A stretch of 12,987 bases of DNA from Chloroflexota bacterium (GTDB lineage Bacteria > Chloroflexota > Anaerolineae > B4-G1), in contig JAAEPW010000479.1 of NCBI GenBank assembly GCA_024232355.1, positions 1-12,987 on the forward strand, in the 5' to 3' direction. The notes under the pieces were generated by a model. The model did not search any database, had not been told where the DNA came from, and worked only from the letters and a program-made list of their open reading frames with translations. The position numbers and the translations under genes are program-made. Below are positions 464 to 12,925 of the stretch, in pieces (position 1 is the first letter of the stretch; every line of letters begins with the position of its first letter).

Positions 464-1213
464 ATGCGCCAAGATGAAATCTGCCGTTTGTCGATTGATC
501 AGTTAGCGAAACTATGTGCCGAGCAGACTCGTCTGTTCGAAACAGGAAGAACGAGCGACGGACGTTATTGTTACGAACTCATCCGCCGCGCTGTTTTGGG
601 TATCTCTGGTGCTTGGGAAGCGATGGATGCTCAATATCGCCCTTGGCTGTGTCGCAAAATCGCGAACCGGTATCAAGATGCCCCGGACGACATCAAAGAC
701 CTCGTCCAGGAATCCCTGATCCGCTTTCATAGGTACGTGACTCCCGACCGATGGGAAAAGTTTCCTGACTTGGCTCATCTCCTGGCTTACCTGGGGAAAT
801 GTGCGCGCAGCCAGATTTTGAACCACCATCGAAATATAACTCAGCAGCATAAGCGAGAGCAAGCTTTCTCAGAAGGCGAACGATTACCCCGCTCCTGCAT
901 CACTATGGCTGGCAATCCAGAGCACCGGGTTGTGACTCGGGAGTCTGAATGCGAGTATTATCAATGGCAAGAACGAGTGCGTGAGTGTGTGTCGCGGAAA
1001 TGTCGCAATCCACACGACTGGCGGTTGATCGAATTACGTTGGGTTTATGATTTGCCGCCCAGGGAGATACACGCCCGCTATCCAGACGAATTTCCTTCCT
1101 TGCCCGAGTTGTACAAACTCATCCGCAACTTGAAGGATCGGATCAGTCGAGACTCTGAATGTGCGGCGCTGTTGAGCACGATGCCCCAAAACAATGTGGA
1201 ACTGGGTTTATAA
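464..1213 (+). CDS. ECF-like RNA polymerase sigma factor
   Basis: A 249-residue sigma-70-family protein. Residues 75-92 (DDIKDLVQESLIRFHRYV) match the core-binding region 2 helix of ECF factors. Residues 106-123 (LLAYLGKCARSQILNHHR) look like regions 2.3/2.4, which open and contact the -10 element. Residues about 184-230 form a region 4 helix-turn-helix (LIELRWVYDLPPREI, then ELYKLIRNLKDRISR) for -35 recognition. The protein is longer than a typical ECF factor (about 170-200 residues), with roughly 55 extra N-terminal residues and a long region 2-4 linker. No strong ribosome binding site precedes the ATG; GGTCAG is the best candidate, implying modest translation. It heads the operon with the double-ZAS protein 15 bases downstream and then the CHAT gene. 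It is probably kept inactive by the second gene until a signal arrives; that step is inferred from synteny and ZAS-family knowledge. Confidence 0.85.
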   Translation: MRQDEICRLSIDQLAKLCAEQTRLFETGRTSDGRYCYELIRRAVLGISGAWEAMDAQYRPWLCRKIANRYQDAPDDIKDLVQESLIRFHRYVTPDRWEKFPDLAHLLAYLGKCARSQILNHHRNITQQHKREQAFSEGERLPRSCITMAGNPEHRVVTRESECEYYQWQERVRECVSRKCRNPHDWRLIELRWVYDLPPREIHARYPDEFPSLPELYKLIRNLKDRISRDSECAALLSTMPQNNVELGL

Positions 1214-1228
1214 AAGTGGAGAATAAGT

Positions 1229-1984
1229 ATGGCCGATTGTATCGCTCCAGAAGAAATCGAATCTTGGCAATTAGATGCCTATACTGACGGCGAGCGTGAT
1301 CCGGCAGTTATCCAACACGTCCGCCGCTGCCCGGTCTGTGCGCGACGGGTAGCCACACCGGACCCACTAGACAGCCAGTTATCGGCTGCCCTGTTTCGCT
1401 CTATTTGTCCCCCGGTAGACGAGTTGATGTGTTATCAATGGGGGCTGTTGTCCGAGGCCCACACTGCAACCTTGGCCAAACATTTGTCCAATTGCCCGCA
1501 TTGTGCAGCCGAAGCTGCTCAACTGGCGCTTGAACCATCAAAAGAAGGACCGTTGCCTCAAATGTCTCGCCCCACGCCACCGCTTTCCAAAAGCTTGCGT
1601 GTTCTCATCGCTCGCCTGCTGCCGAGTGGATCGGCGTTAGCTTTGGCGCCAGTTCGGGCTGGAGAGATGAATGGGACACAAGTTGTGCAAGGCCGTTCGA
1701 CTACTGTCCAGTGTTACGAGGTTGATGACGTGAATTGGGACATCATCCTCAATTGGACACCAGGCCCTGGCGCGGCTTTTACTTTGCAAGGACAGCTTTT
1801 TGGCCCTGGGCCAGACGAGATGACGAGCATCCAAGCCAGGTTAAAACAGACCGAGTCTGTTCCTGCCACTACCCTGGACCAGGATGGTGTTTTTGCCCTT
1901 TCCCCCATCCCACCTGGCGAATATACTTTGTGCCTTTGTGTCTCCCAAGTTGAGGTTCAAATTCCCAACGTCAAGTTAGCTTGA
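1229..1984 (+). CDS. double ZAS-motif putative anti-sigma factor with C-terminal beta domain
   Basis: A 251-residue protein. Two Hx3Cx2C motifs (HVRRCPVC at 30-37, HLSNCPHC at 85-92) are each preceded by a cysteine (C4, C60) at the usual distance. This gives two full ligand sets, C4/H30/C34/C37 and C60/H85/C89/C92, the arrangement of zinc-binding anti-sigma (ZAS) domains. The two halves align, so the domain is an internal duplication. Residues 103-145 form a proline- and serine-rich linker with a weakly hydrophobic stretch too short and broken for a membrane helix, so the protein is probably soluble. Residues about 148-251 resemble a carboxypeptidase-regulatory-like beta sandwich (DQDGVFALSPIPPGEYTL at 217-234). 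GGAG at 1218-1221 lies 7 bases before the ATG. The next gene starts 3 bases after the stop. The expected role is to bind the upstream sigma factor; the beta domain could be the CHAT recognition or cleavage target (inference). Confidence 0.75.
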   Translation: MADCIAPEEIESWQLDAYTDGERDPAVIQHVRRCPVCARRVATPDPLDSQLSAALFRSICPPVDELMCYQWGLLSEAHTATLAKHLSNCPHCAAEAAQLALEPSKEGPLPQMSRPTPPLSKSLRVLIARLLPSGSALALAPVRAGEMNGTQVVQGRSTTVQCYEVDDVNWDIILNWTPGPGAAFTLQGQLFGPGPDEMTSIQARLKQTESVPATTLDQDGVFALSPIPPGEYTLCLCVSQVEVQIPNVKLA

Positions 1985-1987
1985 GTT

Positions 1988-4615
1988 ATGGACGCTATCA
2001 AACTACTCACATTGTTACTAGTTGTAGAGGGTTTGGCTGTTCGGCAAGCAATATTTGACACGCATAGATCTTTGATCGTCCAATGCACCCTGGAAGAATG
2101 GAAAGCGATTGCTCAGAATCACGCGTACGCGGGTGATGAGCAACGAGCGATGTCTGTAGCTAACGTGATCCTGGCTGTGGGTGAATGGCTCGACGATGAC
2201 TCGATTCGCGCCTTGGGTGATTGGACTTTTGGCAATGTATACACTATCGTTGGTAAAGGAAGTGATGCCCGGCCGCATTATCAAGCGGCCGAACGATGTT
2301 ACCGGGCAGTGGGGGACTGGTTGAGCCTGGCGCGTATGAGCGTAGGAACTGTTTTCCAACTGTATCAGACCGGGAACTATGAAAAAGCGCGCCAATTGGC
2401 GGAGGAAAGCAAACCTATCCTGGCTGCCAGCGCCAATCCGGCCGACGAGCGACGGCTGGCCGGATTGGCGAATAATCTGGCAAATATCCACGATCATCTG
2501 GGGCGCTACGAGGAGGCGTTGAGACTATATGAACAGAAAATTGCGCTGTGGGAAGACTGGCCCGACGACCCCAAAGCGCAAGCTGAGATCGCTCGCACTT
2601 GTATCAACGTGGGCATCCTCAAGAAACGTCTAAATCTGTGGGCCGAGGCCGAGATGTCATTGGAGGCAGGATGGCAAACGTTGTCCGAGTCTGCTGGAAC
2701 GACCACCTATCAATTGGACCGGGTGCGGGCCGAGGTACACCTGGCCGATCTCTTGGCCCGACGTGGTGCGTCCCCGGACATTGTATCGGCAGCATTCGAG
2801 CGGGCGCGGGCGTCCCGTGCAGCCGTCGGAGACCCACAATCCGCATCCGGTTCGTCCCACGATTTCCCAGACTTGTTACACCTCGATCTGCTCCAAGCCG
2901 AGTATCAGTTGCGGAGTGGATGCGTAGCTCCAGATTTGCTTGCCCGACTAGAGGCATCGCGCGCCCAGGCTGCGGACGCCGGACAAGCTCGTGAAAAGAT
3001 ACGGGCTGATTTGTTGCTGGCCGGTTACTATGCCCGTCAGGGAGATATGCCGTCCGCCATCGCCCGCTGCATTGCGGCCCGAAAAGACGCCCAGGTGCAC
3101 GGTGATTGGGAGATGACCTACCGTGCCTGGCACACGTTGGGCCATATCTATGCAAAATCGGGAGACGACGAGGCATCCGATGAATCGTTCCGGGCGGCTG
3201 TCGCCGTGATCGAGGGAATCGGCCAGCGTGTGGCAAGCAGTGACCTACGCAGCGGTTTTTTGCAAGACAAATTGGTCGTTTACCAGGATTTGGTAGGGCT
3301 GTATCTGACTCAAGGAGACCCAGCCAGCGCGTTGCATTGGACCGAACGCGCTCGCTCGCGGGAGTTGGTCGAGATGCTCGCCGGTGCCGGTGTTCTCCGG
3401 CTGAATCAGCCGGAAAGCAAACGTCTATCAAAGCAACTGGCTCAAGCGCGAAGCGAATTGGCGGCTGCTGCAAGTTTCGAACACCGGCACACGCTCGAAA
3501 CACGCATCACTGACCTCTCCCGGCGCATCGCGGCCCGCGAGCCGCGCGCTCGCGAGTGGTTGACTGGAGAGACAGCTTTGCCATCAGAACTGTGTGCTGT
3601 CTTGTCGAACGAAACGTTACTGCTCGTCTACACCATCGTCCGAGACTCGCTATGGGTATTGCCGGTGACTCGAAATGGCATACGCACGCCTCAACTATTG
3701 GGACCTGTCCCAACTGCCGAAGCGATAGAACGAGACCTGGGCTGGTTACGCAATTTGGCCGGTTACCCTCCGGTCCTCATCGAACGCCGTGCACAAGCCC
3801 TCATCGCGTCGGCTCGACGGCCATTGGCGAACTGGTACAATTGCTTCTTGGCTCCGCTATCCGATCTCTTGAGCAAACACCGCCGCATCATCGTTGCGCC
3901 TGATGGCCCGCTTTTCCGACTGCCACTTCACGCCTGTTACAATCCGGCTACCGGTCACTATCTGTTAGAAACCCACCAGGTCAGTTACACACCCAGCGCC
4001 ACAGCCTGGTTATTGGCTGGGCGGCGTGGGACGCGGGGCCAGGGAGGAGTGGCTCTGGCGTATGCCGGGGAGCAATTGCACCATAGCACGGATGAAATCC
4101 ACGCCATTCTGAATGCCTACCCCGACTTTGTCGTTTATACTGGTCCAGAGGCAACGCCGGAGCGATTGCAAGGAAGATTGGCTCGCCAGGCGGCCTATAT
4201 CCATCTGGCAGCCCACGCTGTCTTTCGGGGAGACAATCCTCTCTTTTCCAGCGTGGAACTGGCCGGTGGGCAGTTAGAGACGTTGGATGTGCTGCAATTG
4301 CACCTAAACGCCACGTTGGTCGTCTTGAGCGCCTGTGAGACGGGGCGTGGAACGTTGCGGGGCGGCGAGCATTTAGGACTGGCCCGTGCTTTTCTGCTCG
4401 CCGGTACGCGGTCTGTTCTGGCAAGTCACTGGGCGGTGGACGATGCAGCGACGGCGGAATTGATGGGCGCGTTTTATCGCCGTCTGGCAGCCGGAGAACA
4501 ACCGGCAGAGGCGTTACGCAAAGCACAGTTGACGGCTCTCTCGTCGTCGGCCCCCCACCGCCGCCATCCCTACTATTGGGCGCCGTTTTTTTTACTGGGC
4601 GCTGAAAGACGATAA
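1988..4615 (+). CDS. TPR-CHAT caspase-like protease
   Basis: An 875-residue protein. Residues about 80-460 are helical tetratricopeptide-type repeats (for example AGLANNLANIHDHLGRYEEA), a protein-binding scaffold. Residues about 475-520 are a charged, coiled-coil-like connector. Residues about 530-875 are a CHAT domain with its hallmarks: PDGPLFRLPLHA, the YTPSAT motif, HLAAHA with the catalytic His at 743, and LSACETG with the catalytic Cys at 783. Both residues are present, so the protease should be active. The N-terminus has a mildly hydrophobic patch but no convincing signal peptide, so it is probably cytoplasmic. It starts 3 bases after the double-ZAS gene without its own good ribosome binding site, implying translational coupling and matched stoichiometry. 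CHAT proteases are related to caspases and separases and usually cut a specific partner; the neighbouring anti-sigma-like protein is the natural candidate (inference). A run of eight T (4586-4593) lies near the 3' end. Confidence 0.88.
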   Translation: MDAIKLLTLLLVVEGLAVRQAIFDTHRSLIVQCTLEEWKAIAQNHAYAGDEQRAMSVANVILAVGEWLDDDSIRALGDWTFGNVYTIVGKGSDARPHYQAAERCYRAVGDWLSLARMSVGTVFQLYQTGNYEKARQLAEESKPILAASANPADERRLAGLANNLANIHDHLGRYEEALRLYEQKIALWEDWPDDPKAQAEIARTCINVGILKKRLNLWAEAEMSLEAGWQTLSESAGTTTYQLDRVRAEVHLADLLARRGASPDIVSAAFERARASRAAVGDPQSASGSSHDFPDLLHLDLLQAEYQLRSGCVAPDLLARLEASRAQAADAGQAREKIRADLLLAGYYARQGDMPSAIARCIAARKDAQVHGDWEMTYRAWHTLGHIYAKSGDDEASDESFRAAVAVIEGIGQRVASSDLRSGFLQDKLVVYQDLVGLYLTQGDPASALHWTERARSRELVEMLAGAGVLRLNQPESKRLSKQLAQARSELAAAASFEHRHTLETRITDLSRRIAAREPRAREWLTGETALPSELCAVLSNETLLLVYTIVRDSLWVLPVTRNGIRTPQLLGPVPTAEAIERDLGWLRNLAGYPPVLIERRAQALIASARRPLANWYNCFLAPLSDLLSKHRRIIVAPDGPLFRLPLHACYNPATGHYLLETHQVSYTPSATAWLLAGRRGTRGQGGVALAYAGEQLHHSTDEIHAILNAYPDFVVYTGPEATPERLQGRLARQAAYIHLAAHAVFRGDNPLFSSVELAGGQLETLDVLQLHLNATLVVLSACETGRGTLRGGEHLGLARAFLLAGTRSVLASHWAVDDAATAELMGAFYRRLAAGEQPAEALRKAQLTALSSSAPHRRHPYYWAPFFLLGAERR

Positions 4616-4665: not shown

Positions 4666-4680
4666 ACACACCTGGTGTGT
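4666..4680. promoter_or_regulatory. perfect inverted repeat before the clostripain gene (operator candidate)
   Basis: ACACACC-T-GGTGTGT is a perfect 7+7 inverted repeat with a one-base centre. It lies in the 120-bp gap between the CHAT gene and the secreted protease. A TATAGT box at 4690-4695 follows at a distance that would place the repeat over the -35 position, which suits a repressor or activator site. Its core CACCTGGTG (4669-4677) recurs before the M23-SLH gene. A hairpin reading (ACACAC-CTG-GTGTGT then TTTAT) could also act as a weak terminator of the upstream operon, but the T run is poor. Confidence 0.45.
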
Positions 4681-4689
4681 TTATAGAAA

Positions 4690-4695
4690 TATAGT
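4690..4695 (+). promoter_or_regulatory. candidate -10 box of the secreted protease gene
   Basis: TATAGT in an AT-rich stretch, 40 bases before the start codon. No canonical -35 hexamer is present at 17 bases; that position is occupied by the inverted repeat at 4666-4680. This suggests either an activator-dependent promoter or recognition by an alternative sigma factor. It is a weak call made from composition and position. Confidence 0.3.
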
Positions 4696-4735: not shown

Positions 4736-7700
4736 ATGACTGACCGATTGTCCCGCCTGCTTTCTGCATTGCTTTCCGTTATCGTGGGTTGTTTGACCTG
4801 CTGGTTTCTGTTTTCCAACATAGCTATTCAGGCTCAACCACTAGATCCCCCCATTTTGGGTGAACATTGTGGCGACGTTGGTGTGCTGCCAGACCCGTTA
4901 CCGATCAGTTGGTGTGGATGCGTGTGGGGCGCGGTGTACGTGGATGGTAATCCAACAGCAGGAGTGACCGTCACGTTGATTCGGGCTAGGGACGTCATCA
5001 CATTTGTCACCACTGACACGTACTGGGACCAGCCCTTGTATGCCCTGGATGGAAATTGGATTGGGGCCAGCTACGGCGATGCGATGACCGTGACAGCCGC
5101 TTACGGCGGGCAAGTCGTCAGCCGCACCTATCGCGCTTTTCCCAACCCAGCAACATTGGAACAACAAGTAAATCTCATTTTCCCGGAAGCCACGGGCAAT
5201 CCTCCAACGGTTATTTCTGCCGAGGTGATGTTTCCTTACCTGGGTTACGTCCAGTTCGTGGCCGAGGGAATTGACGACGACGAGGGCGGGGCCACCATCG
5301 TGGGGTACGAGTGGCATTCCGATCAGGATGGTATCATCGGCACAGAACCGACCGTTACCTTGCCTATCGCCGATTTGACCACCGCTGCACACACGCTCGA
5401 TTTGCGCGTGCAAGATGACGAGGGGGAATGGTCTGCCCCGGCGATACGATCCCTGCCTTTGCACTTGTTACACCCGGTTCAGGTATCGCCGCTGTCCAAT
5501 GGGCATATCGCTCCTATGACGACGTCTATCGCTATCACCTATAACCAATCCGTCGATCCTGGCCTGGTGAACACACAGACGGTTGTCGTCCACGCCAGGG
5601 AGACGGGGCGGTTATTTGAATCGTATCAGGTGATTGACGGTCTGATTCGCTTCACTCCACTATCTCCTTTCAAGCCAGGCGAGTTGGTGCAGGTCAGTGT
5701 TACGACCGGAACCAGGAGTACGAGTGGATATGGACCGTTCAGGCCGCTCGTGCATGAGTTTCGGGCTGGAGTCAGGGGCGGGAGTGGTTTTTTTGCCCGG
5801 ACGAGTTTTGGCGATCTAAATACTCGTGACGTAGCAATTGGCGATATAGACGGCGACGACGACGTGGATATGGTTGTCGTAAGCGGGCCTATGGAAGGTC
5901 ACGATAGTCAAGTCTGGCTCAATAATGGATCGGGGACATTCACGGTCAATCAGATTCTGGAAATAGCAGGCGATGGTATCGAACTCGGCGATCTCGATGG
6001 TGACCAAGACCTGGATGCCTTCATTGTGGTTGATGGACCGTCCACTAACACAGTTTGGTTTAATGATGGCGCAGGATATTTTTCTGACAGTGGACAACAA
6101 CTCGGTTACTCGGATAGTGAAAAGGTAGCACTGGGGGACGTGGATGGGGATGGCGACCTGGACGCTTTTGTCGTCAATTGGATGGGGCAATCCAATAAAG
6201 TTTGGATCAACGATGGTCTAGGTTACTTTGTCGATAGTGGACAGAACCTTTTTGGCGACAGAAGTACCATAGTTAGATTGGGTGATCTGGATGACGACGG
6301 TGATCTGGATGCCTTTGTGGGCAACTGGAACACTGAACCTAATACTGTTTGGCTGAACGATGGCGCCGGTACCTTTGTCTTTCATCAAAATGTGCGAGAC
6401 CCCCTAAATACGGATACCAAGGATCTCGCTCTCGGTGATCTGGATGCGGATGGCGATCTGGACGTTTTCTTTGCCAACCAAAAGGGCCAAGCAAATGAGA
6501 TTTGGTTGAACGATGGGAAGGGAAACTTTGGCAACAGCGGGCAACACCTGGGGCATCTAGGTAGCGAAAATGTTGTTCTGGGTGATCTGGATGGAGATGG
6601 CGATTTGGATGCAGTTGTAGCCAATGAGAATCACCCAACGACGGAGCCATACAACAAGGTTTGGTTCAACGATGGCAATGGCGGATTCACCGAGAGCATC
6701 CAGAACCTGGGCAGTGGCAACAGTCGGACTCTCTCACCTTTGAGCGACTTTGACGGCGATGGTGACCTCGACGTCTTTGTGGGCAACGAAGGAGAGACCA
6801 ACTGGATTTGGTTCAACACGAACTCTTACTTTTCGATCAGCAAACACGCCTCTTCAACAGCCCTGGTTGGCAAACCCATCACGTTCACGTTGCGCATCAC
6901 CAATAGCGGCAACGTGGTCGCTGCCAACCTGGTCATCACCGATGCTCTTCCAGCGAGGGCCAACTATGTGAGCGGCGGTACGCTGGGAGCAAATAACGTC
7001 GTCAGTTGGACAGTGGATTCTCTCCTTCCAAAACAAGCCGTGGAGGTCGTGCTGGTGGTCACTGCGTCTGCACCAATCACCAATAGCGAGTATGGCGCTT
7101 TTGCTGACGAAGGGATATTCGCCGTTGGACAGCAAGCGGTTGTGGTGGACGTTGGAACGCTGCCCGAGATTCAGTCTGTGACGGTTGTTCCAGGCGAACC
7201 CGCGATTGGCGAGCCGGTGATCTTTACGGCCCAGGTGACCAGCACGACGCCTTTCACTGCGCTGTGGGAGTTTGACAGCATAATCACTTCTGGCCTGACG
7301 CTCACCCACGCATTTAATCATCCAGGAGTTTACCCCTTTACTCTGACGGTGGACAATCGCTATGGCGCGGTTTATCATAGCGGCTCTGTAACCGTCACAG
7401 CCCCCAGGAGCAATTGGCTGGCCTTGTTATACCTGGATGGAGACAATAATCTCAGTCACTGGATGCAACTCGCGCTCGACCGCCTGGAAACGATCCCCAT
7501 CACCGATAGTGTGCGAGTGATCGCGTTAATTGATGGCAGCCGCACAAACGATACCTATCTGTACGAGATACGGACTAACTCTCACATCCCGCTCAATCTC
7601 GACCAAAGTTGGTACAGCACCGAAGTGGATATGGGACAAGAAAGTACTTTGAGTGGATTCGTCAACTGGGCATTGCAAAGCTATCCGGCGGATTACGTTT

Positions 7701-8611
7701 ATCTGTCTATCGCCAATCACGGCGCTGGCGTGCGGGGCATTAGTTGGGACCGTAGCAGCGACGACGATTACCTGAAACCGGGTGAAATCGTGGATTTTGC
7801 CGGTGGCCTCGACAGCAAGATAGACGTTTTGCACCTGGATGCCTGTTTGATGGGGATGAGCGAGTTGGCCTATCTGTTCCGCGACGAGGTGGATTATCTC
7901 GTCGCCTCGCAGAATTTGGCCTGGGGCATCTTTGCCTACGATCAATACCTGGATGGAGCGGCCACCCGCTCGCCGGAGGAGCTTGCTGTCCACATCGCCG
8001 ATACCTACAGTGTCGAGCTTTTTAACCATCCTCACACCATTTCTGTCCTGGGTCTCGATCAAATGGCGGCACTGAATAGCGCGGTGTTCACTTTCACGCA
8101 AGCGTTGTTGGCCGACGACTATGATGCCGAATTAGACGCTGTTCTGAGCGATGTGCAACGCTTTGATTCGCGCAACTATTTCGTCATTGACAAGAATGAC
8201 GAGTTTATCGATCTCTACGACTTTGCCCGGCTGGTGTCCGAGACGATCACCAACTCGACCGTGCATACGGCAGCCCAGGCTGTGATGGATTTGCTGACGG
8301 TGGGGCAACCCGGCAGCGCGATGCCGCCTGGTGTGGTGCTGCGAGAGCATCACAAGAGCGGTGCGTATGGTACGCGCTACTGGGATTTGGAGAATTCGCA
8401 CGGGCTGTCTATTTACTATCCAGCCGACCCTGCTTCTCCCGACTATGGAGATTATGCTGGTGCTCCTTATACTTTTCTAGATGACAGTGGGTGGCTAGAT
8501 CTTCTTTATCATTACGTAAAGGTTCCCCAACCGACGGTATCGCTACCTTCAGGGCCAGCGCCCACACTGTTATATCGCGTCTTTTTGCCGCTCGTTGGGC
8601 GCGGTAGTTGA
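4736..8611 (+). CDS. secreted VCBS-repeat protein with C-terminal clostripain (C11) protease domain
   Basis: A 1291-residue exported protein. Residues 1-33 are a signal peptide, with likely cleavage after IQA. A carboxypeptidase-regulatory-like domain (about 60-150), a PKD/Ig-like domain (156-245) and a Big_5-type Ig domain (246-342) follow. Seven VCBS/FG-GAP units (about 350-697) carry calcium-type DxDGDGDLD loops. Next come a DUF11 domain (about 698-807) and a PKD domain (808-890). Residues 891-1265 are a peptidase C11 domain with catalytic His995 in SIANHGAG and Cys1037 in LDACLMGMSE. Clostripain relatives cut after basic residues, usually Arg. The last residues, YRVFLPLVGRGS, form a short hydrophobic tail typical of Chloroflexota secreted proteins and may be an anchoring or sorting signal. 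AGGAG at 4724-4728 lies 7 bases before the ATG; an earlier ATG at 4729 stops after four codons. The domain order suggests a cell-surface protease presented on a stalk. Confidence 0.88.
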   Translation: MTDRLSRLLSALLSVIVGCLTCWFLFSNIAIQAQPLDPPILGEHCGDVGVLPDPLPISWCGCVWGAVYVDGNPTAGVTVTLIRARDVITFVTTDTYWDQPLYALDGNWIGASYGDAMTVTAAYGGQVVSRTYRAFPNPATLEQQVNLIFPEATGNPPTVISAEVMFPYLGYVQFVAEGIDDDEGGATIVGYEWHSDQDGIIGTEPTVTLPIADLTTAAHTLDLRVQDDEGEWSAPAIRSLPLHLLHPVQVSPLSNGHIAPMTTSIAITYNQSVDPGLVNTQTVVVHARETGRLFESYQVIDGLIRFTPLSPFKPGELVQVSVTTGTRSTSGYGPFRPLVHEFRAGVRGGSGFFARTSFGDLNTRDVAIGDIDGDDDVDMVVVSGPMEGHDSQVWLNNGSGTFTVNQILEIAGDGIELGDLDGDQDLDAFIVVDGPSTNTVWFNDGAGYFSDSGQQLGYSDSEKVALGDVDGDGDLDAFVVNWMGQSNKVWINDGLGYFVDSGQNLFGDRSTIVRLGDLDDDGDLDAFVGNWNTEPNTVWLNDGAGTFVFHQNVRDPLNTDTKDLALGDLDADGDLDVFFANQKGQANEIWLNDGKGNFGNSGQHLGHLGSENVVLGDLDGDGDLDAVVANENHPTTEPYNKVWFNDGNGGFTESIQNLGSGNSRTLSPLSDFDGDGDLDVFVGNEGETNWIWFNTNSYFSISKHASSTALVGKPITFTLRITNSGNVVAANLVITDALPARANYVSGGTLGANNVVSWTVDSLLPKQAVEVVLVVTASAPITNSEYGAFADEGIFAVGQQAVVVDVGTLPEIQSVTVVPGEPAIGEPVIFTAQVTSTTPFTALWEFDSIITSGLTLTHAFNHPGVYPFTLTVDNRYGAVYHSGSVTVTAPRSNWLALLYLDGDNNLSHWMQLALDRLETIPITDSVRVIALIDGSRTNDTYLYEIRTNSHIPLNLDQSWYSTEVDMGQESTLSGFVNWALQSYPADYVYLSIANHGAGVRGISWDRSSDDDYLKPGEIVDFAGGLDSKIDVLHLDACLMGMSELAYLFRDEVDYLVASQNLAWGIFAYDQYLDGAATRSPEELAVHIADTYSVELFNHPHTISVLGLDQMAALNSAVFTFTQALLADDYDAELDAVLSDVQRFDSRNYFVIDKNDEFIDLYDFARLVSETITNSTVHTAAQAVMDLLTVGQPGSAMPPGVVLREHHKSGAYGTRYWDLENSHGLSIYYPADPASPDYGDYAGAPYTFLDDSGWLDLLYHYVKVPQPTVSLPSGPAPTLLYRVFLPLVGRGS
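5808..6823 (+). repeat. seven VCBS/FG-GAP repeats, period about 147-155 bases
   Basis: Coding tandem repeats of about 48-52 residues. Each has a GD(L/I/V)DGDGDLDAF calcium loop followed by a (V/I)W(F/L/I)NDG motif. Near-identical DNA cores starting GGTGATCTGGATG recur at 6281, 6434 and 6581, spacings of 153 and 147 bases, both multiples of three. Copies can therefore be gained or lost without a frameshift. The first unit and the last (DFDGDGDLDVF) are the most divergent. Such arrays usually form calcium-stabilised beta-propellers; seven units would fit one seven-bladed propeller. Confidence 0.85.
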
Positions 8612-8680: not shown

Positions 8681-8690
8681 GTGTGTTTAT
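8681..8690 (+). promoter_or_regulatory. GTGTGTTTAT element shared with the clostripain upstream region
   Basis: The ten-base string GTGTGTTTAT occurs here and at 4675-4684. The copies end 54 and 51 bases before the downstream ATG. Both are followed shortly by TAGTA. It may mark a shared promoter element. The rest of the 133-bp gap (8612-8744) holds a run of seven G (8673-8679) and no recognisable terminator. Confidence 0.25.
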
Positions 8691-8744
8691 GGTAGTAAAG
8701 GCCAAAAATGTTTTGTTCATTCATCAGAGCAATGGAGGTTTGTT

Positions 8745-9004: not shown

Positions 9005-9036
9005 TCCACTATCAAATCTTATAAGGAGGCTGTGTG

Positions 9037-9228
9037 ATGGCTAGAAATTTTCGCTCTTGTCCAAGTTGTGGATCACGTTTGGGGTCCGCTATCAAGGTCG
9101 AGGTTTATCAGTGCAAAGATTGCAAGACAGTGTGGTGTCAAAAATGTGGCGCGCCGCCCCAAGGTAGAAAGTGCTCGAGATGTGGCACAGGAGGGTTTAG
9201 GAAGAACACGATAGGTCAACTTCGATAG
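9037..9228 (+). CDS. small double zinc-ribbon protein
   Basis: A 63-residue protein with four CxxC pairs (C8/C11, C26/C29, C34/C37, C46/C49), enough ligands for two structural zinc sites. The ATG at 9037 is preferred to the adjacent GTG at 9034 because AGGAGG at 9024-9029 lies 7 bases away, near optimal. The remaining residues are basic (many Lys/Arg, C-terminus GFRKNTIGQLR), compatible with binding nucleic acid or an acidic protein partner. No enzymatic domain is present. The preceding 70 bases contain no convincing terminator, so it may be co-transcribed with the small membrane gene. Zinc ribbons of this size occur as adaptors and regulators; the exact role is unknown. Confidence 0.75.
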   Translation: MARNFRSCPSCGSRLGSAIKVEVYQCKDCKTVWCQKCGAPPQGRKCSRCGTGGFRKNTIGQLR

Positions 9229-9283: not shown

Positions 9284-9292
9284 CACCTGGTG
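9284..9292. promoter_or_regulatory. CACCTGGTG palindrome before the M23-SLH gene
   Basis: The same nine-base odd palindrome found at 4669-4677. It is centred 50 bases before the GTG start here and 63 bases before the ATG there. The string AGAAATA follows in both places, directly here and after a further seven bases at the first site. TAATTC at 9309-9314 is a possible -10 box, which would put the palindrome at the -35 position as in the first site. It is a candidate shared operator; no known regulator is assigned. The remainder of the gap (9229-9337) holds only a ten-base palindrome CAAACGTTTG at 9243-9252. Confidence 0.35.
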
Positions 9293-9322
9293 AGAAATAC
9301 TTGCCGTCTAATTCTAGTTCTG

Positions 9323-9330
9323 ACAGGAGG
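9323..9330 (+). promoter_or_regulatory. ribosome binding site deciding a GTG start
   Basis: ACAGGAGG ends 7 bases before the GTG at 9338. This selects that GTG over the in-frame GTG at 9290, which has no such site and would put 16 extra residues ahead of a clean signal peptide. Confidence 0.75.
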
Positions 9331-9337
9331 AAACAAA

Positions 9338-12300
9338 GTGAAAACCCTTATTAGAAAAACGACTGTGAAGAGTTTCGTGTCGATTTTAATTGTGTTGGGT
9401 GGTTTAACATCGCCCATATTCAGCACCTCTATGTTATATTGTCGAGTGCAAGCACAAGAAAATTCTCCAATTATCCAAGAACTTGGTCTAGCTGCAACCG
9501 AGTTGCTGACCAATGAATTACTGTCAGAAGATACAGAATATCAAATTGAACTTGAACGACTTGAATCAAATGCCGAGATTGGTCATGCCGAGGTATCTCT
9601 TCATTACCAGACTGCATGGGGAGAATTTAATGAAACCATTCACATCTATGCCCTAATTCATAATGGTCAAATCGAGAAAATTTTTAGCGAACCCAGTCAA
9701 GACTTTTTCAAGTATGCGGAACAGATACCAAAAGATTTTTTGCCCCGTGAGCGTCTCGCGCAGTGGCTCGCCATCAGAGATTGTGAACAAATGCAGTCGA
9801 GAACTGTGAATGTCGCGAGTGATTATAAACTGCCTTTTACCGGCGGGACAAGTTACACAGTTAGGCGAGGAGGAAGCAGCCACAATGATAGTTATGATTT
9901 TGCAATGGCTACAGAGACTATTGTCAAAGCTGCGAGAGGCGGACAAGTTGAAAAAGTGAATAGTTTTGATTCTACAGGGGGAGGATACCTCATACGTATC
10001 AAGCATATTGACGGTTCCTATGGATGGTACCTCCACCTCACAAAAAATGGGAACCTAGTATCCCAAGGGGATTTTGTCAGTCAAGGCGACTGTCTAGCTT
10101 ATAGCGGCAATACTGGAATAACCAGTGGTCCCCATTTGCATTTTAATGTATCTTCTGACACCGGAAATGATGACCGAGTTCGGATTACCTGGACGGAAGC
10201 TCCAACGAGCAACCTCAGTCTAGATGGGACAAACTTCCCAAGCCCAGTGTCTCAAAACACTCCTGGAAAATGTAGCAAACCTTATTCGTTCGAATATGTA
10301 AATCAAAACACCCCCCCCCCTCCTCCAGCCACAATATTGAGTGGCGACACCTTCACCGTCACCTTCTGGCTCACCAACACCGGCACAATGTCCTGGACCA
10401 CCGACACCGTCAAACTCGCCACCACTATCCCCCAAGACCGTCCCAGCGACTTTTACCAACCTGGCGCGCCCGGCTGGGAATCCGCCAATCGCATCTGGCT
10501 CAAAGACGGCCCCGTCTATACCAACAGCGTAGGTATCTTTGAAGCCCGTTTCACCGCCCCAGGCCCAGGTACTTACCACGAATACTTTAGCCTGGTGGCA
10601 GAAGGCATCCAGTGGTTCTCCGGCCCCGACCTGTGGTTCAAGGTATTCGTCCCCGACCCTAGCGCCACATTCCCCGATGTGCCACAAGGCACCCGGTTCT
10701 ACGAAGAAATAGACTGCCTGGCCAAACGCGACATCGTTCACGGCGACAATGGACTATTCTATCCCCACGACAGCGTCACCCGAGGCCAGGTGGCTCTGAT
10801 GTTGGCCCGTCTGCTCAAAGGCAACCAGAACCTTCCGGAACCTACCCTGGATGTATTCGCCGATATGACCGTGGACAACGAAATGACACGGGCTGCCGAG
10901 TTTTTGCACAATTACTCGCTCATAGACGGGGATGAAACAATACGCGTCTTTAACGGCTACACAAAAGACGAGCAACGCAAATTCGGCCCCGATTTGCCTA
11001 TCACCCGGGCGCAGGCTTTGTGGGTCGTCGTCCGGGCGCTCAAGATTTACCTGGGCGAAACATCTCTGGATGCGGTCCCGGCCGGGTATTACAGCGACCT
11101 GGAAGGTTTCAGTCCCGATCAAGTGCAGGAAATTCTCGAAGGGCGTGGAGAATCCATCACCAATGTAGACGAGGAATTTAACCCCAACCTCGACATTCCT
11201 CGGGAACAGATGGCAGCTTTTATCTACCGCACCCTGCTGCGTATGAACAACCTGACCATCCCTGAAGAGGCCGACGTGCAAGCGAAAACCTGTCCGCCCC
11301 TGCCCGATTACTGGGATTCGAGCCTCGCCATCGCCAGTTCGCAGCAACCCGCACAGCCCAACACGCCGAACGAGACCTTGTGCTTCCCCACCACTCCCGG
11401 TTCAGCTATCCCTGGTGCAACCATTCCCGACGCTGGCGCGACCGCCTGCTACTTTTTCGACGAGAGCATCTACCGCATCGTCGAGGACGTCCCCCCCGAC
11501 TTTTGGGCACGCCCCCACATCGAGGCGATCTATGACGCCGGATTGAGCATCGGCTGCGATGACGAACATACCGGGCGGCTCTACTGCCCCATGTCAGATA
11601 CCTTGCGAGTGCAGGCTGGCATATTCATGCTCCGCGCCAAACATTACTACGAAACCGGTGAACCTGGCATAAACTATCCACTAGACCCATGCACCGAGCA
11701 GATATTCGACGATGTGCCCATAACTGACCCGCATTGTCCCGAAATCAATGATTTGTACTATGAGGGCATTACCCAGGGAAGCACGCAATGTGAGCCTGGC
11801 GACCCGGTGGGTTACTACTTTTGTCCTGACCTGCCCGTTAATCGCACCCAAACCGCGCTGTTCATCCTGCGCACCCTGGAAGGAGCAAACGTCGAAGACA
11901 ACCTGCCATACGCCCTCGGCATATTCGAGGACGTGCCGCCTAACGACGATCCCCACGCGGCTGCCATCGAAGAATTTTATTGGCGCGGCATCACCAACGG
12001 CTCTCCGGACTGCGGCGACGGCTTTAACTATTGCCCGTCCGACACCGTATCGCGGGCGCACATAGCCGCCTTGTTGAACAGGGCTTTCATCAACCTGCCC
12101 ACCCCCACAGACCGCATCGGTGACGTCTGTTTTTCCACCGCCAGTGGCTACGATATTCCCAGGCAAGGAACGGATGGCCCTGGCCTACCCGAAGTGGACG
12201 ACGAGGACGTGGTTTGCTATCACAAATACGCCAATCTGTTCAAGATGTTCTTTAACGGCAGCGTCAATGGCCTGACCGACGACGTAGATGCCCTCTACGT

Positions 12301-12925
12301 CGATTCTGGATGGGACGAGATGTGGTTTTCCATCGCTGGCAGCCAAGACATCCCCGGCATTGCGGAAACGGTGCAAGACGAGGATATCGTCCGTTACGAG
12401 GATGGTCACTTTTATGGGCAAATAGACGGCAGCGACTTTACGGAGTTGAGTTCAGAGGACATTGACGCCTTGCATTATTGGTCTACCAGCCGTTACTATA
12501 TCTCTACCTCTACCAACGCGGATTTTGGCGATGACGAGGACGTCGTCCGCTTTAGGCCCAGCACCAGTGCCTTTTACGATTTCTTCGATGGTAGCGACGT
12601 CAATCTCATCGGTGACGTGGACGCCGTGACGGTAGTTTCGAACGATGCCGCCAACTCGATCATCTATCTCGTCGCCTACCCCGATTACTGTGTCGCGGGT
12701 GACAATGGACAGGTATGTGCTGACCACAATGACATCGTTCGCTTCACAGGCGCTACCGGTTCGGATACCTCTGGAAACTTTGGCTCCGCTGTATGTTTCG
12801 ACCTGGACCAATATCCGGGTGTGGATGGGGAAAACATTGAGGCCATTCGGCATGGTTCAGAACTCCAGGAAGTTAGATTGACACTTCCAGATTCTCCAGA
12901 GAGTAACTGGGGAGAAGCAACGTGA
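9338..12925 (+). CDS. secreted M23 peptidase with NBR1-Ig, six SLH-like repeats and C-terminal repeat module
   Basis: A 1195-residue protein (GTG start). Residues 1-40 are a signal peptide ending in a VQAQ-like site. Residues 41-160 are an unrecognised domain. Residues about 165-290 are a zinc metallopeptidase M23 (LytM) domain with H182, D187, H233 and the HLHF pair H266/H268. All expected ligand and catalytic positions are present, so it is probably an active peptidoglycan or peptide cross-link hydrolase. A proline stretch at about 325-331 leads into an NBR1-like Ig domain (to about 440). Residues about 442-917 hold six SLH-like units (FPDV, FADM, YYSDL, VEDV, FDDV and FEDV starts), which normally bind cell-wall polymers. 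Units 4-6 each carry a Cys pair in the loop. Residues about 925-1180 repeat a DEDVVRF / FDGS / DVDA pattern. The 5' part is about 42% GC and the 3' part about 63-68% in lines I counted, with the switch at a run of ten C (10311-10320). Confidence 0.85.
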   Translation: MKTLIRKTTVKSFVSILIVLGGLTSPIFSTSMLYCRVQAQENSPIIQELGLAATELLTNELLSEDTEYQIELERLESNAEIGHAEVSLHYQTAWGEFNETIHIYALIHNGQIEKIFSEPSQDFFKYAEQIPKDFLPRERLAQWLAIRDCEQMQSRTVNVASDYKLPFTGGTSYTVRRGGSSHNDSYDFAMATETIVKAARGGQVEKVNSFDSTGGGYLIRIKHIDGSYGWYLHLTKNGNLVSQGDFVSQGDCLAYSGNTGITSGPHLHFNVSSDTGNDDRVRITWTEAPTSNLSLDGTNFPSPVSQNTPGKCSKPYSFEYVNQNTPPPPPATILSGDTFTVTFWLTNTGTMSWTTDTVKLATTIPQDRPSDFYQPGAPGWESANRIWLKDGPVYTNSVGIFEARFTAPGPGTYHEYFSLVAEGIQWFSGPDLWFKVFVPDPSATFPDVPQGTRFYEEIDCLAKRDIVHGDNGLFYPHDSVTRGQVALMLARLLKGNQNLPEPTLDVFADMTVDNEMTRAAEFLHNYSLIDGDETIRVFNGYTKDEQRKFGPDLPITRAQALWVVVRALKIYLGETSLDAVPAGYYSDLEGFSPDQVQEILEGRGESITNVDEEFNPNLDIPREQMAAFIYRTLLRMNNLTIPEEADVQAKTCPPLPDYWDSSLAIASSQQPAQPNTPNETLCFPTTPGSAIPGATIPDAGATACYFFDESIYRIVEDVPPDFWARPHIEAIYDAGLSIGCDDEHTGRLYCPMSDTLRVQAGIFMLRAKHYYETGEPGINYPLDPCTEQIFDDVPITDPHCPEINDLYYEGITQGSTQCEPGDPVGYYFCPDLPVNRTQTALFILRTLEGANVEDNLPYALGIFEDVPPNDDPHAAAIEEFYWRGITNGSPDCGDGFNYCPSDTVSRAHIAALLNRAFINLPTPTDRIGDVCFSTASGYDIPRQGTDGPGLPEVDDEDVVCYHKYANLFKMFFNGSVNGLTDDVDALYVDSGWDEMWFSIAGSQDIPGIAETVQDEDIVRYEDGHFYGQIDGSDFTELSSEDIDALHYWSTSRYYISTSTNADFGDDEDVVRFRPSTSAFYDFFDGSDVNLIGDVDAVTVVSNDAANSIIYLVAYPDYCVAGDNGQVCADHNDIVRFTGATGSDTSGNFGSAVCFDLDQYPGVDGENIEAIRHGSELQEVRLTLPDSPESNWGEAT
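10311..10320 (+). repeat. homopolymer run of ten C inside the M23-SLH gene
   Basis: The run encodes part of a five-proline stretch between the M23 and NBR1-Ig domains. The reading frame is intact with ten C. With nine C the frame would meet TAG at 10530-10532; with eleven it would meet TGA at 10540-10542. Either change would release a signal peptide plus M23 protein without Ig or SLH parts. Tracts of this length are slippage-prone in bacteria. Confidence 0.8.
10661..12088 (+). repeat. six SLH-like repeats in two blocks of three
   Basis: Each unit has the pattern F-x-D-V-P, an A-x-E-x-L/Y helix, a glycine-turn loop (for example GITNGSPDCG) and the closing (V/I)(S/T)R-x-Q/H-x-A-x-x-L helix. 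Units 1-3 and 4-6 are separated by a linker rich in Pro, Ser, Thr and Gln (around 11290-11440). Units 1-2 match the family well and unit 3 is divergent. Units 4-6 carry paired cysteines about 7-13 residues apart. A second, shorter run of seven C lies at 11491-11497. Confidence 0.7.
12112..12880 (+). repeat. C-terminal DEDVVRF/FDGS/DVDA repeat module
   Basis: About four units of 50-65 residues. Each has an acidic DDEDVVxx or DEDIVRY motif, then an aromatic strand with F(D/N)GS, then a (D/E)D(V/I)DAL-type motif and a strand such as MWFSIAG. The fourth unit is diverged (HNDIVRF, and NIEAI in the last position). The periodic acidic and aromatic pattern suggests beta-propeller or beta-solenoid folding, possibly with calcium. 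I know the motif from large extracellular proteins but cannot name a family. Confidence 0.6.

Follow-up and report, generated by a model that had tools for sequence, protein, structure and literature searches.

Can a caspase-type protease control a sigma factor without the help of a CRISPR system? This question is raised by three adjacent genes of a Chloroflexota bacterium, found on a contig of 12,987 nucleotides (JAAEPW010000479.1, assembly GCA_024232355.1), the whole of which we call the window. They encode an extracytoplasmic function (ECF)-type sigma factor, a protein with two zinc anti-sigma (ZAS) motifs, and a TPR-CHAT protease. In type III-E CRISPR systems, according to PMC10028731, the TPR-CHAT protease Csx29 cuts the sigma inhibitor Csx30, relieving the inhibition of CASP-sigma. 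An earlier note on the window had proposed that the same three roles are filled here by proteins encoded side by side. We find that the three genes form an old set and favor, with modest confidence, the view that their products make up a soluble switch in which CHAT cuts the linker of the ZAS protein, setting the sigma factor free.

Three close-set genes in a window without CRISPR parts

The three genes lie on the same strand, separated by 15 and 3 bases in the list of open reading frames (ORFs) (Table 1). The earlier note described the trio as an ECF-like sigma factor followed by a soluble double-ZAS protein and a catalytically intact TPR-CHAT protease; the ORFs, the gaps and the residues His743 and Cys783 were confirmed. 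Its statement that CRISPR parts are missing holds for the 13-kb window: none of the 20 repeat families listed (out of 22) is array-like, the largest ones being FG-GAP coding repeats, and no match to Cas7-11/gRAMP was found in eight ORFs with Pfam or in six ORFs with NCBIfam. The close relatives of the window proteins that have a named source are proteins of Chloroflexi metagenome-assembled genomes (P0003, P0011, and P0022). A longest contig of 23,952 is common to sigma P0011, ZAS P0003 and CHAT P0022, and one of 14,650 to P0012, P0005 and P0021, which suggests, by length only, that these relatives lie together there too.

Table 1. Coordinates of the three genes, of their main elements and of the gene that follows
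Feature	Position	Strand	Remarks
Divergent ECF-type sigma factor, 249 aa	464..1213	+	Sigma70_r2, 27 bits; alignment A1
Soluble double-ZAS anti-sigma-like protein with C-terminal beta-sandwich, 251 aa	1229..1984	+	
ZAS motif 1 (C4, H30, C34, C37)	1238..1339	+	Invariant in seven rows of A2, window included
ZAS motif 2 (C60, H85, C89, C92)	1406..1504	+	Better kept of the two
Linker, residues 104-157, proposed cleavage region	1538..1699	+	Mostly low model confidence; A-x-L segment and arginine conserved
Codon of Arg143 (LAPVR/AG), candidate cut site	1655..1657	+	13 residues past Leu130; putative role
C-terminal Ig/FnIII-like beta-sandwich, residues 159-250	1703..1978	+	
TPR-CHAT (separase/Csx29-like) cysteine protease, 875 aa	1988..4615	+	
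Codon of catalytic His743	4214..4216	+	6/6 operon CHATs; aligned to CHG histidine of Csx29
Codon of catalytic Cys783	4334..4336	+	6/6 operon CHATs; 66/66 rows of A4
Possible fourth member: FG-GAP/DUF11/PKD/clostripain (C11) protein, hydrophobic N terminus	4736..8611	+	Peptidase_C11, 110.9 bits

An old gene order

The sigma-ZAS-CHAT order is old and has been kept across distant Chloroflexota. A profile of the ZAS alignment A3 matched 109 of 400 Chloroflexota genomes at E ≤ 1e-6; at most six candidates were scored per genome, so the counts are lower bounds. We analyzed 120 neighborhoods, comprising all 106 further listed hits at E ≤ 1.3e-20 and 14 weaker hits that we selected manually, in most cases because their C-terminal half matched; some of the 120 share one genome or come from near relatives. 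Usable loci, i.e., those with at least 2 kb downstream, numbered 106. CHAT was found within the next two same-strand called ORFs after ZAS in 59 of them, also beside sigma factors only 24 to 33% identical to that of the window; the earlier note's refuting condition on synteny was not borne out. The background is about one CHAT per 0.9 Mb (46 matches in seven genomes, ~39.6 Mb). Hence, the adjacency of ZAS and CHAT is not due to chance. A gap above 1.6 kb separates 2 of the 56 unfused pairs, and the CHAT ORF of one locus (L143) has just 300 residues. By our sigma profile, a sigma gene lies upstream of, or is fused to, ZAS in 42 of the 59 CHAT-linked loci; at the other 17, the upstream ORF is a sigma factor by Pfam in 6 and is not one in 2, with 9 cut off or unscanned. 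The distances of sigma, ZAS and CHAT are correlated (0.92 to 0.93 in 50 operons), a sign of common inheritance rather than of contact.

When genome contigs were searched with the sigma alignment, 17 loci emerged. The order is present in four (L001, L002, L004, and L016); L003 has sigma and ZAS without CHAT, and in L017, from Spirochaetales, CHAT is on the opposite strand ~1.6 kb from ZAS. The remaining 11 gave no ZAS match at E of 0.001, some being on short contigs. Since only 10 of 198 Spirochaetota genomes matched, and only G006 strongly, the arrangement in L017 may be an isolated transfer.

Other arrangements involve the same families. Short double-ZAS proteins (127 to 151 residues) accompany sigma factors of the same family, with no CHAT, in L094-L096, L108-L110, L115, L117, L121, L125-L127, L130, and L131. 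Several of these loci continue with genes for 398 to 454 and 252 to 299 residues; the 421-residue product in L094, the only one scanned, had no Pfam match. A second sigma-ZAS pair, with neither CHAT nor an arginine at the aligned linker position (see below), occurs in L138, L140, L142, L146, and L148, whose genomes also have a sigma-ZAS-CHAT operon (L106, L105, L101, L102, and L103; the CHAT ORF of L106 ends early).

The three proteins

The ZAS protein has two copies of the Hx3Cx2C motif, each with an upstream cysteine (C4..H30xxxC34xxC37 and C60..H85xxxC89xxC92), invariant in the seven sequences of alignment A2, window included. The called ORFs in L002 and L017 lack the first motif. The protein scores 16.9 bits against Pfam zf-HC2, short of the cut-off of 22.2. 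At E ≤ 0.05, the ZAS profile matches six sequences of the PDB, of which four carry the name of anti-sigma factor and one more is DdvA, entered under a different name, and the second motif matches ChrR. There is no transmembrane-like stretch in the protein (best 19-residue mean hydropathy, 1.33). The structure model (mean predicted local distance difference test [pLDDT] 76.7, predicted template modeling score 0.44) has pLDDT values below 50 at residues 104-120 and 134-157, and the C terminus weakly matches CarboxypepD_reg, below threshold. The linker and the beta domain go beyond the earlier note, as does the protease encoded by the fourth gene. In viral contigs, 16 stretches fit the ZAS patterns and none was confirmed by tblastn.

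The CHAT domain scores 208.4 bits in Pfam (cut-off, 24). His743 and Cys783 are invariant in the six operon CHATs compared, that of the window among them, and the catalytic pair is kept in 58 of the 59 operon CHATs of the larger survey. In the alignment of 66 TPR-CHAT proteins (A4), Cys783 is invariant; His743 is not listed among the positions conserved at ≥90%. In structure, the CHAT model matches Csx29 best, and the score against the Csx29 family, 58.9 bits for a cut-off of 300, places the window protein outside that family. A defense role finds no support here: among eight proteins, PADLOC reported nothing beyond a weak hit to BovA for the window CHAT (22.9 bits) and a subtilase hit for the L004 subtilase.

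The sigma factor scores 27 bits against Pfam Sigma70_r2 (cut-off, 24) and 33.8 bits against NCBIfam sigma70-ECF (TIGR02937), under the cut-off of 42.9, and region 4 has no Pfam match. We therefore class it as a probable, divergent member of the ECF type. A search at E ≤ 0.001 gave 12 proteins, the window sigma counted in. Six divergent relatives have regions 2 and 4, the latter above cut-off in L172 only. Chloroflexi relatives without a ZAS match were also seen (L010 and L012-L015); of these, L010, L012, and L013 were confirmed to have ABC-transporter genes downstream.

Links between sigma, ZAS and CHAT

Three genomes (L116, L136, and L139) encode sigma and ZAS as one in-frame protein of 498 to 516 residues, with CHAT adjoining. 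These fusions suggest that sigma and ZAS are partners. Their parts were assigned by our own sigma and ZAS profiles (E of 4e-24 or better); a Pfam scan of L116 and L136 found zf-HC2 in L136 only and a sigma domain in neither. A methionine lies near the start of the ZAS part in each fusion, which may allow ZAS to be produced on its own as well.

The C-terminal domain is present in all 59 CHAT-linked ZAS proteins, and CHAT is beside none of the 25 usable ZAS proteins that lack it. The linker has a conserved segment (Ala128 in 52 and Leu130 in 51 of the 59), followed in every one of the 59 by an arginine, usually 10 to 15 residues past Leu130 (23 in L057). A small or acidic residue often follows this arginine (Gly in 29, Asp in 9, Ser in 9, and Ala in 4 of the 59). 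Among the 22 domain-bearing ZAS proteins without CHAT, 14 have an arginine at the aligned column (Fisher p of 1e-5, calculated post hoc and ignoring relatedness). All eight loci without it also lack an adjacent CHAT, and some of these eight proteins have other arginines nearby. In the window, we chose Arg143 as the candidate because its spacing fits the common 10 to 15 residues better; it is also invariant in the seven A2 sequences. The common domain and linker arginine suggest a link between CHAT and ZAS.

Several observations weigh against the proposed switch. The arginine was picked post hoc, by a scan for conserved positions, and its aligned column is occupied by Gln154 in the window and its nearest relative. 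The spacing of 10 to 15 residues applies to 58 of the 59 CHAT-linked loci, yet the arginines of L001, L002, and L004 are at 16 to 23 residues, so the choice of Arg143 is tentative. Neighboring CHAT genes are missing from 22 of the 81 usable domain-bearing ZAS loci. Twelve of the 14 hand-picked weaker neighborhoods have CHAT; when all 14 are excluded by subtraction, 92 usable loci remain, of which 47 have CHAT; all 47 also have the domain, and CHAT is at none of 24 loci without the domain. On the sigma tree, in which weak forks and long branches, that of the window included, are numerous, CHAT adjacency changes eight times, and the domain and the arginine twice each. Their correlations with CHAT thus rest on about two changes each, paired tests being far from significant, and even a contrast of 59/59 against 0/25 must count as weak evidence. 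Finally, Csx29 cuts Csx30 within the C-terminal domain, and the release of sigma is unclear even in that system (PMC10028731).

Likeness to known systems

The ZAS protein resembles the zinc anti-sigma factors ChrR and RsrA in its motif, ChrR being matched at motif 2. These have one ZAS unit and are not known to have a protease partner. Separase, for its part, is eukaryotic and has cohesin as its substrate. Many bacteria commonly encode CHAT proteases, and substrates are known for few of these.

One parallel in gene content is the CRISPR CASP/Craspase system, which likewise encodes an ECF sigma factor together with its inhibitor and a TPR-CHAT protease (PMC10028731). In contrast to it, no CRISPR array was seen in the 13-kb window and no Cas7-11-like gene lies there, the inhibitor is a ZAS protein with a beta-sandwich, and CHAT is far under the Csx29 cut-off. 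The CalpL/CalpT/CalpS system (PMC11417357) follows the logic proposed here, with a protease cutting an anti-sigma factor to free an ECF sigma factor, but it uses a Lon-SAVED protease switched by cyclic tetra-adenylate and linked to type III CRISPR.

Two further systems are precedents. DdvA, the anti-sigma factor of the ECF sigma DdvS (PDB 8ROT, 8RW5, and 8RLZ), is matched in one chain by both the ZAS and the CHAT profiles. It differs in being a single transmembrane chain, according to the entry title, whereas ZAS and CHAT are separate ORFs here and ZAS has no membrane segment. The signal that inactivates DdvA is described as unknown in PMC4374960. For ECF54, a review (PMC8999054) states that control by proteolysis, in the absence of an anti-sigma factor, was proposed on the basis of a conserved gene context with CHAT, subtilase and carboxypeptidase domains. 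The present context is similar in part, with its CHAT neighbor, subtilases in 25 of 59 relatives, a C11 peptidase in the window and the sub-threshold CarboxypepD_reg match. Unlike ECF54, cited as a case without an anti-sigma factor, it includes a ZAS protein, and it may be an ECF54 system with its anti-sigma factor recognized. A divergent branch (L164, L169-L172, and L176), possibly nearer to ECF54, has a more typical ECF sigma, a ZAS-like protein of 194 to 219 residues and CHAT, with a subtilase-like gene (431 to 479 residues) in L164, L170, L171, and L172. The ECF54 proposal and the DdvA chain reduce the newness implied by the earlier note. Still, among the matches listed in the open literature, to which subscription papers and preprints do not belong, no paper describes a CRISPR-free CHAT protease that cuts a ZAS anti-sigma factor.

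A proposed proteolytic switch and its alternatives

How could the three proteins work together? At rest, the double-ZAS protein would hold the sigma factor. A signal, perhaps received through the TPR region, would activate CHAT, which would recognize the beta-sandwich and cut the flexible linker between it and the ZAS helices, probably after the conserved arginine (Arg143 in the window). Cleavage of ZAS would free the sigma factor. The second protease encoded by the next gene, a subtilase in many relatives and a clostripain in the window, could be a target of the sigma factor or carry out a second step. Release by a linker cut is the most economical reading; it follows the logic of Csx29, Csx30 and CASP-sigma and of CalpL, CalpT and CalpS. 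A broader idea, conceivable though on balance doubtful, is a general, soluble and CRISPR-free module of Chloroflexota: a separase-like CHAT would act on a zinc anti-sigma factor by cutting it past a conserved linker arginine, and the released sigma factor would drive a second protease, CASP and DdvA being special versions of the module.

Alternatively, ZAS itself could sense redox state or zinc, as in ChrR and RsrA, and the sigma factor would turn on the operon, with CHAT and the subtilase or C11 peptidase being outputs that act on other proteins, e.g., in regulated cell death. This would account for the ChrR match of motif 2, for proteases placed downstream, frequently the place of target genes, and for the 47 of 106 usable ZAS loci without CHAT just downstream. 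We nevertheless regard it as unlikely, since it leaves unexplained both the domain and linker arginine in 59 of 59 CHAT-linked ZAS proteins and the union of ZAS and CHAT in DdvA. Proteolysis might also keep the system off, CHAT or a neighboring protease degrading the sigma factor. A review (PMC8999054) describes control of this kind and names ECF54 as a case for which it was proposed, but that proposal concerns sigma factors without an anti-sigma factor, whereas an anti-sigma-like protein is encoded here and contains the conserved candidate site, in a site scan that covered ZAS only; we consider this improbable. Even less probable is that CHAT binds the C-terminal domain of ZAS and alters sigma release without cutting it, its protease acting on another substrate: the single DdvA chain and its unknown inactivating signal (PMC4374960) would be compatible with this, and the retention of the catalytic pair in 58 of 59 operon CHATs speaks against it. 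That the three genes are mere neighbors without shared function has nothing in its favor and next to no probability, given the frequency of their order relative to the CHAT background.

With a likely substrate, a partner and a candidate cut site in one operon, the question of CHAT substrates becomes directly testable with three proteins. If the proposal holds, CRISPR CASP would take its place in a broader class of caspase-type transcription switches that does not depend on CRISPR. It would also suggest that at least some CHAT- or subtilase-linked sigma factors do have an anti-sigma factor, although they are regarded as lacking one.

The fourth gene and the rest of the window

The gene after CHAT may be a fourth member of the set. 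Its product reaches a hydropathy of 2.34 at residue 8 and is likely exported. Given the gap of 120 bases after CHAT, the gene could have its own promoter. Among the 59 loci, the ORF after CHAT matches our subtilase profile in 25 and our clostripain profile in 2 (L075 and L175); these 27 matches are profile calls, made with profiles built from three Pfam-confirmed subtilases and from the C11 domain of the window. The subtilase N terminus has a lipoprotein-like signal in L002 and L004 and none in L016. Other scanned fourth genes encode amidohydrolases (L058 and L059), or Hen1, ZIP and polysaccharide synthesis proteins, and the last three kinds may be mere neighbors.

A 19-base pattern, the TGTGTTTAT box, occurs at 4676-4694 and 8682-8700, ~60 bases 5' of the start codons at 4736 and ~8745, and is possibly a shared promoter. 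It has three matches with up to three mismatches against 0.16 expected, a test that is circular because the pattern was built from two of its matches. Further downstream, positions 9034-9228 encode a 64-residue zinc-ribbon-like protein with sub-threshold Pfam matches, and positions 9290-12925 encode a large protein that combines M23 peptidase with S-layer homology domains.

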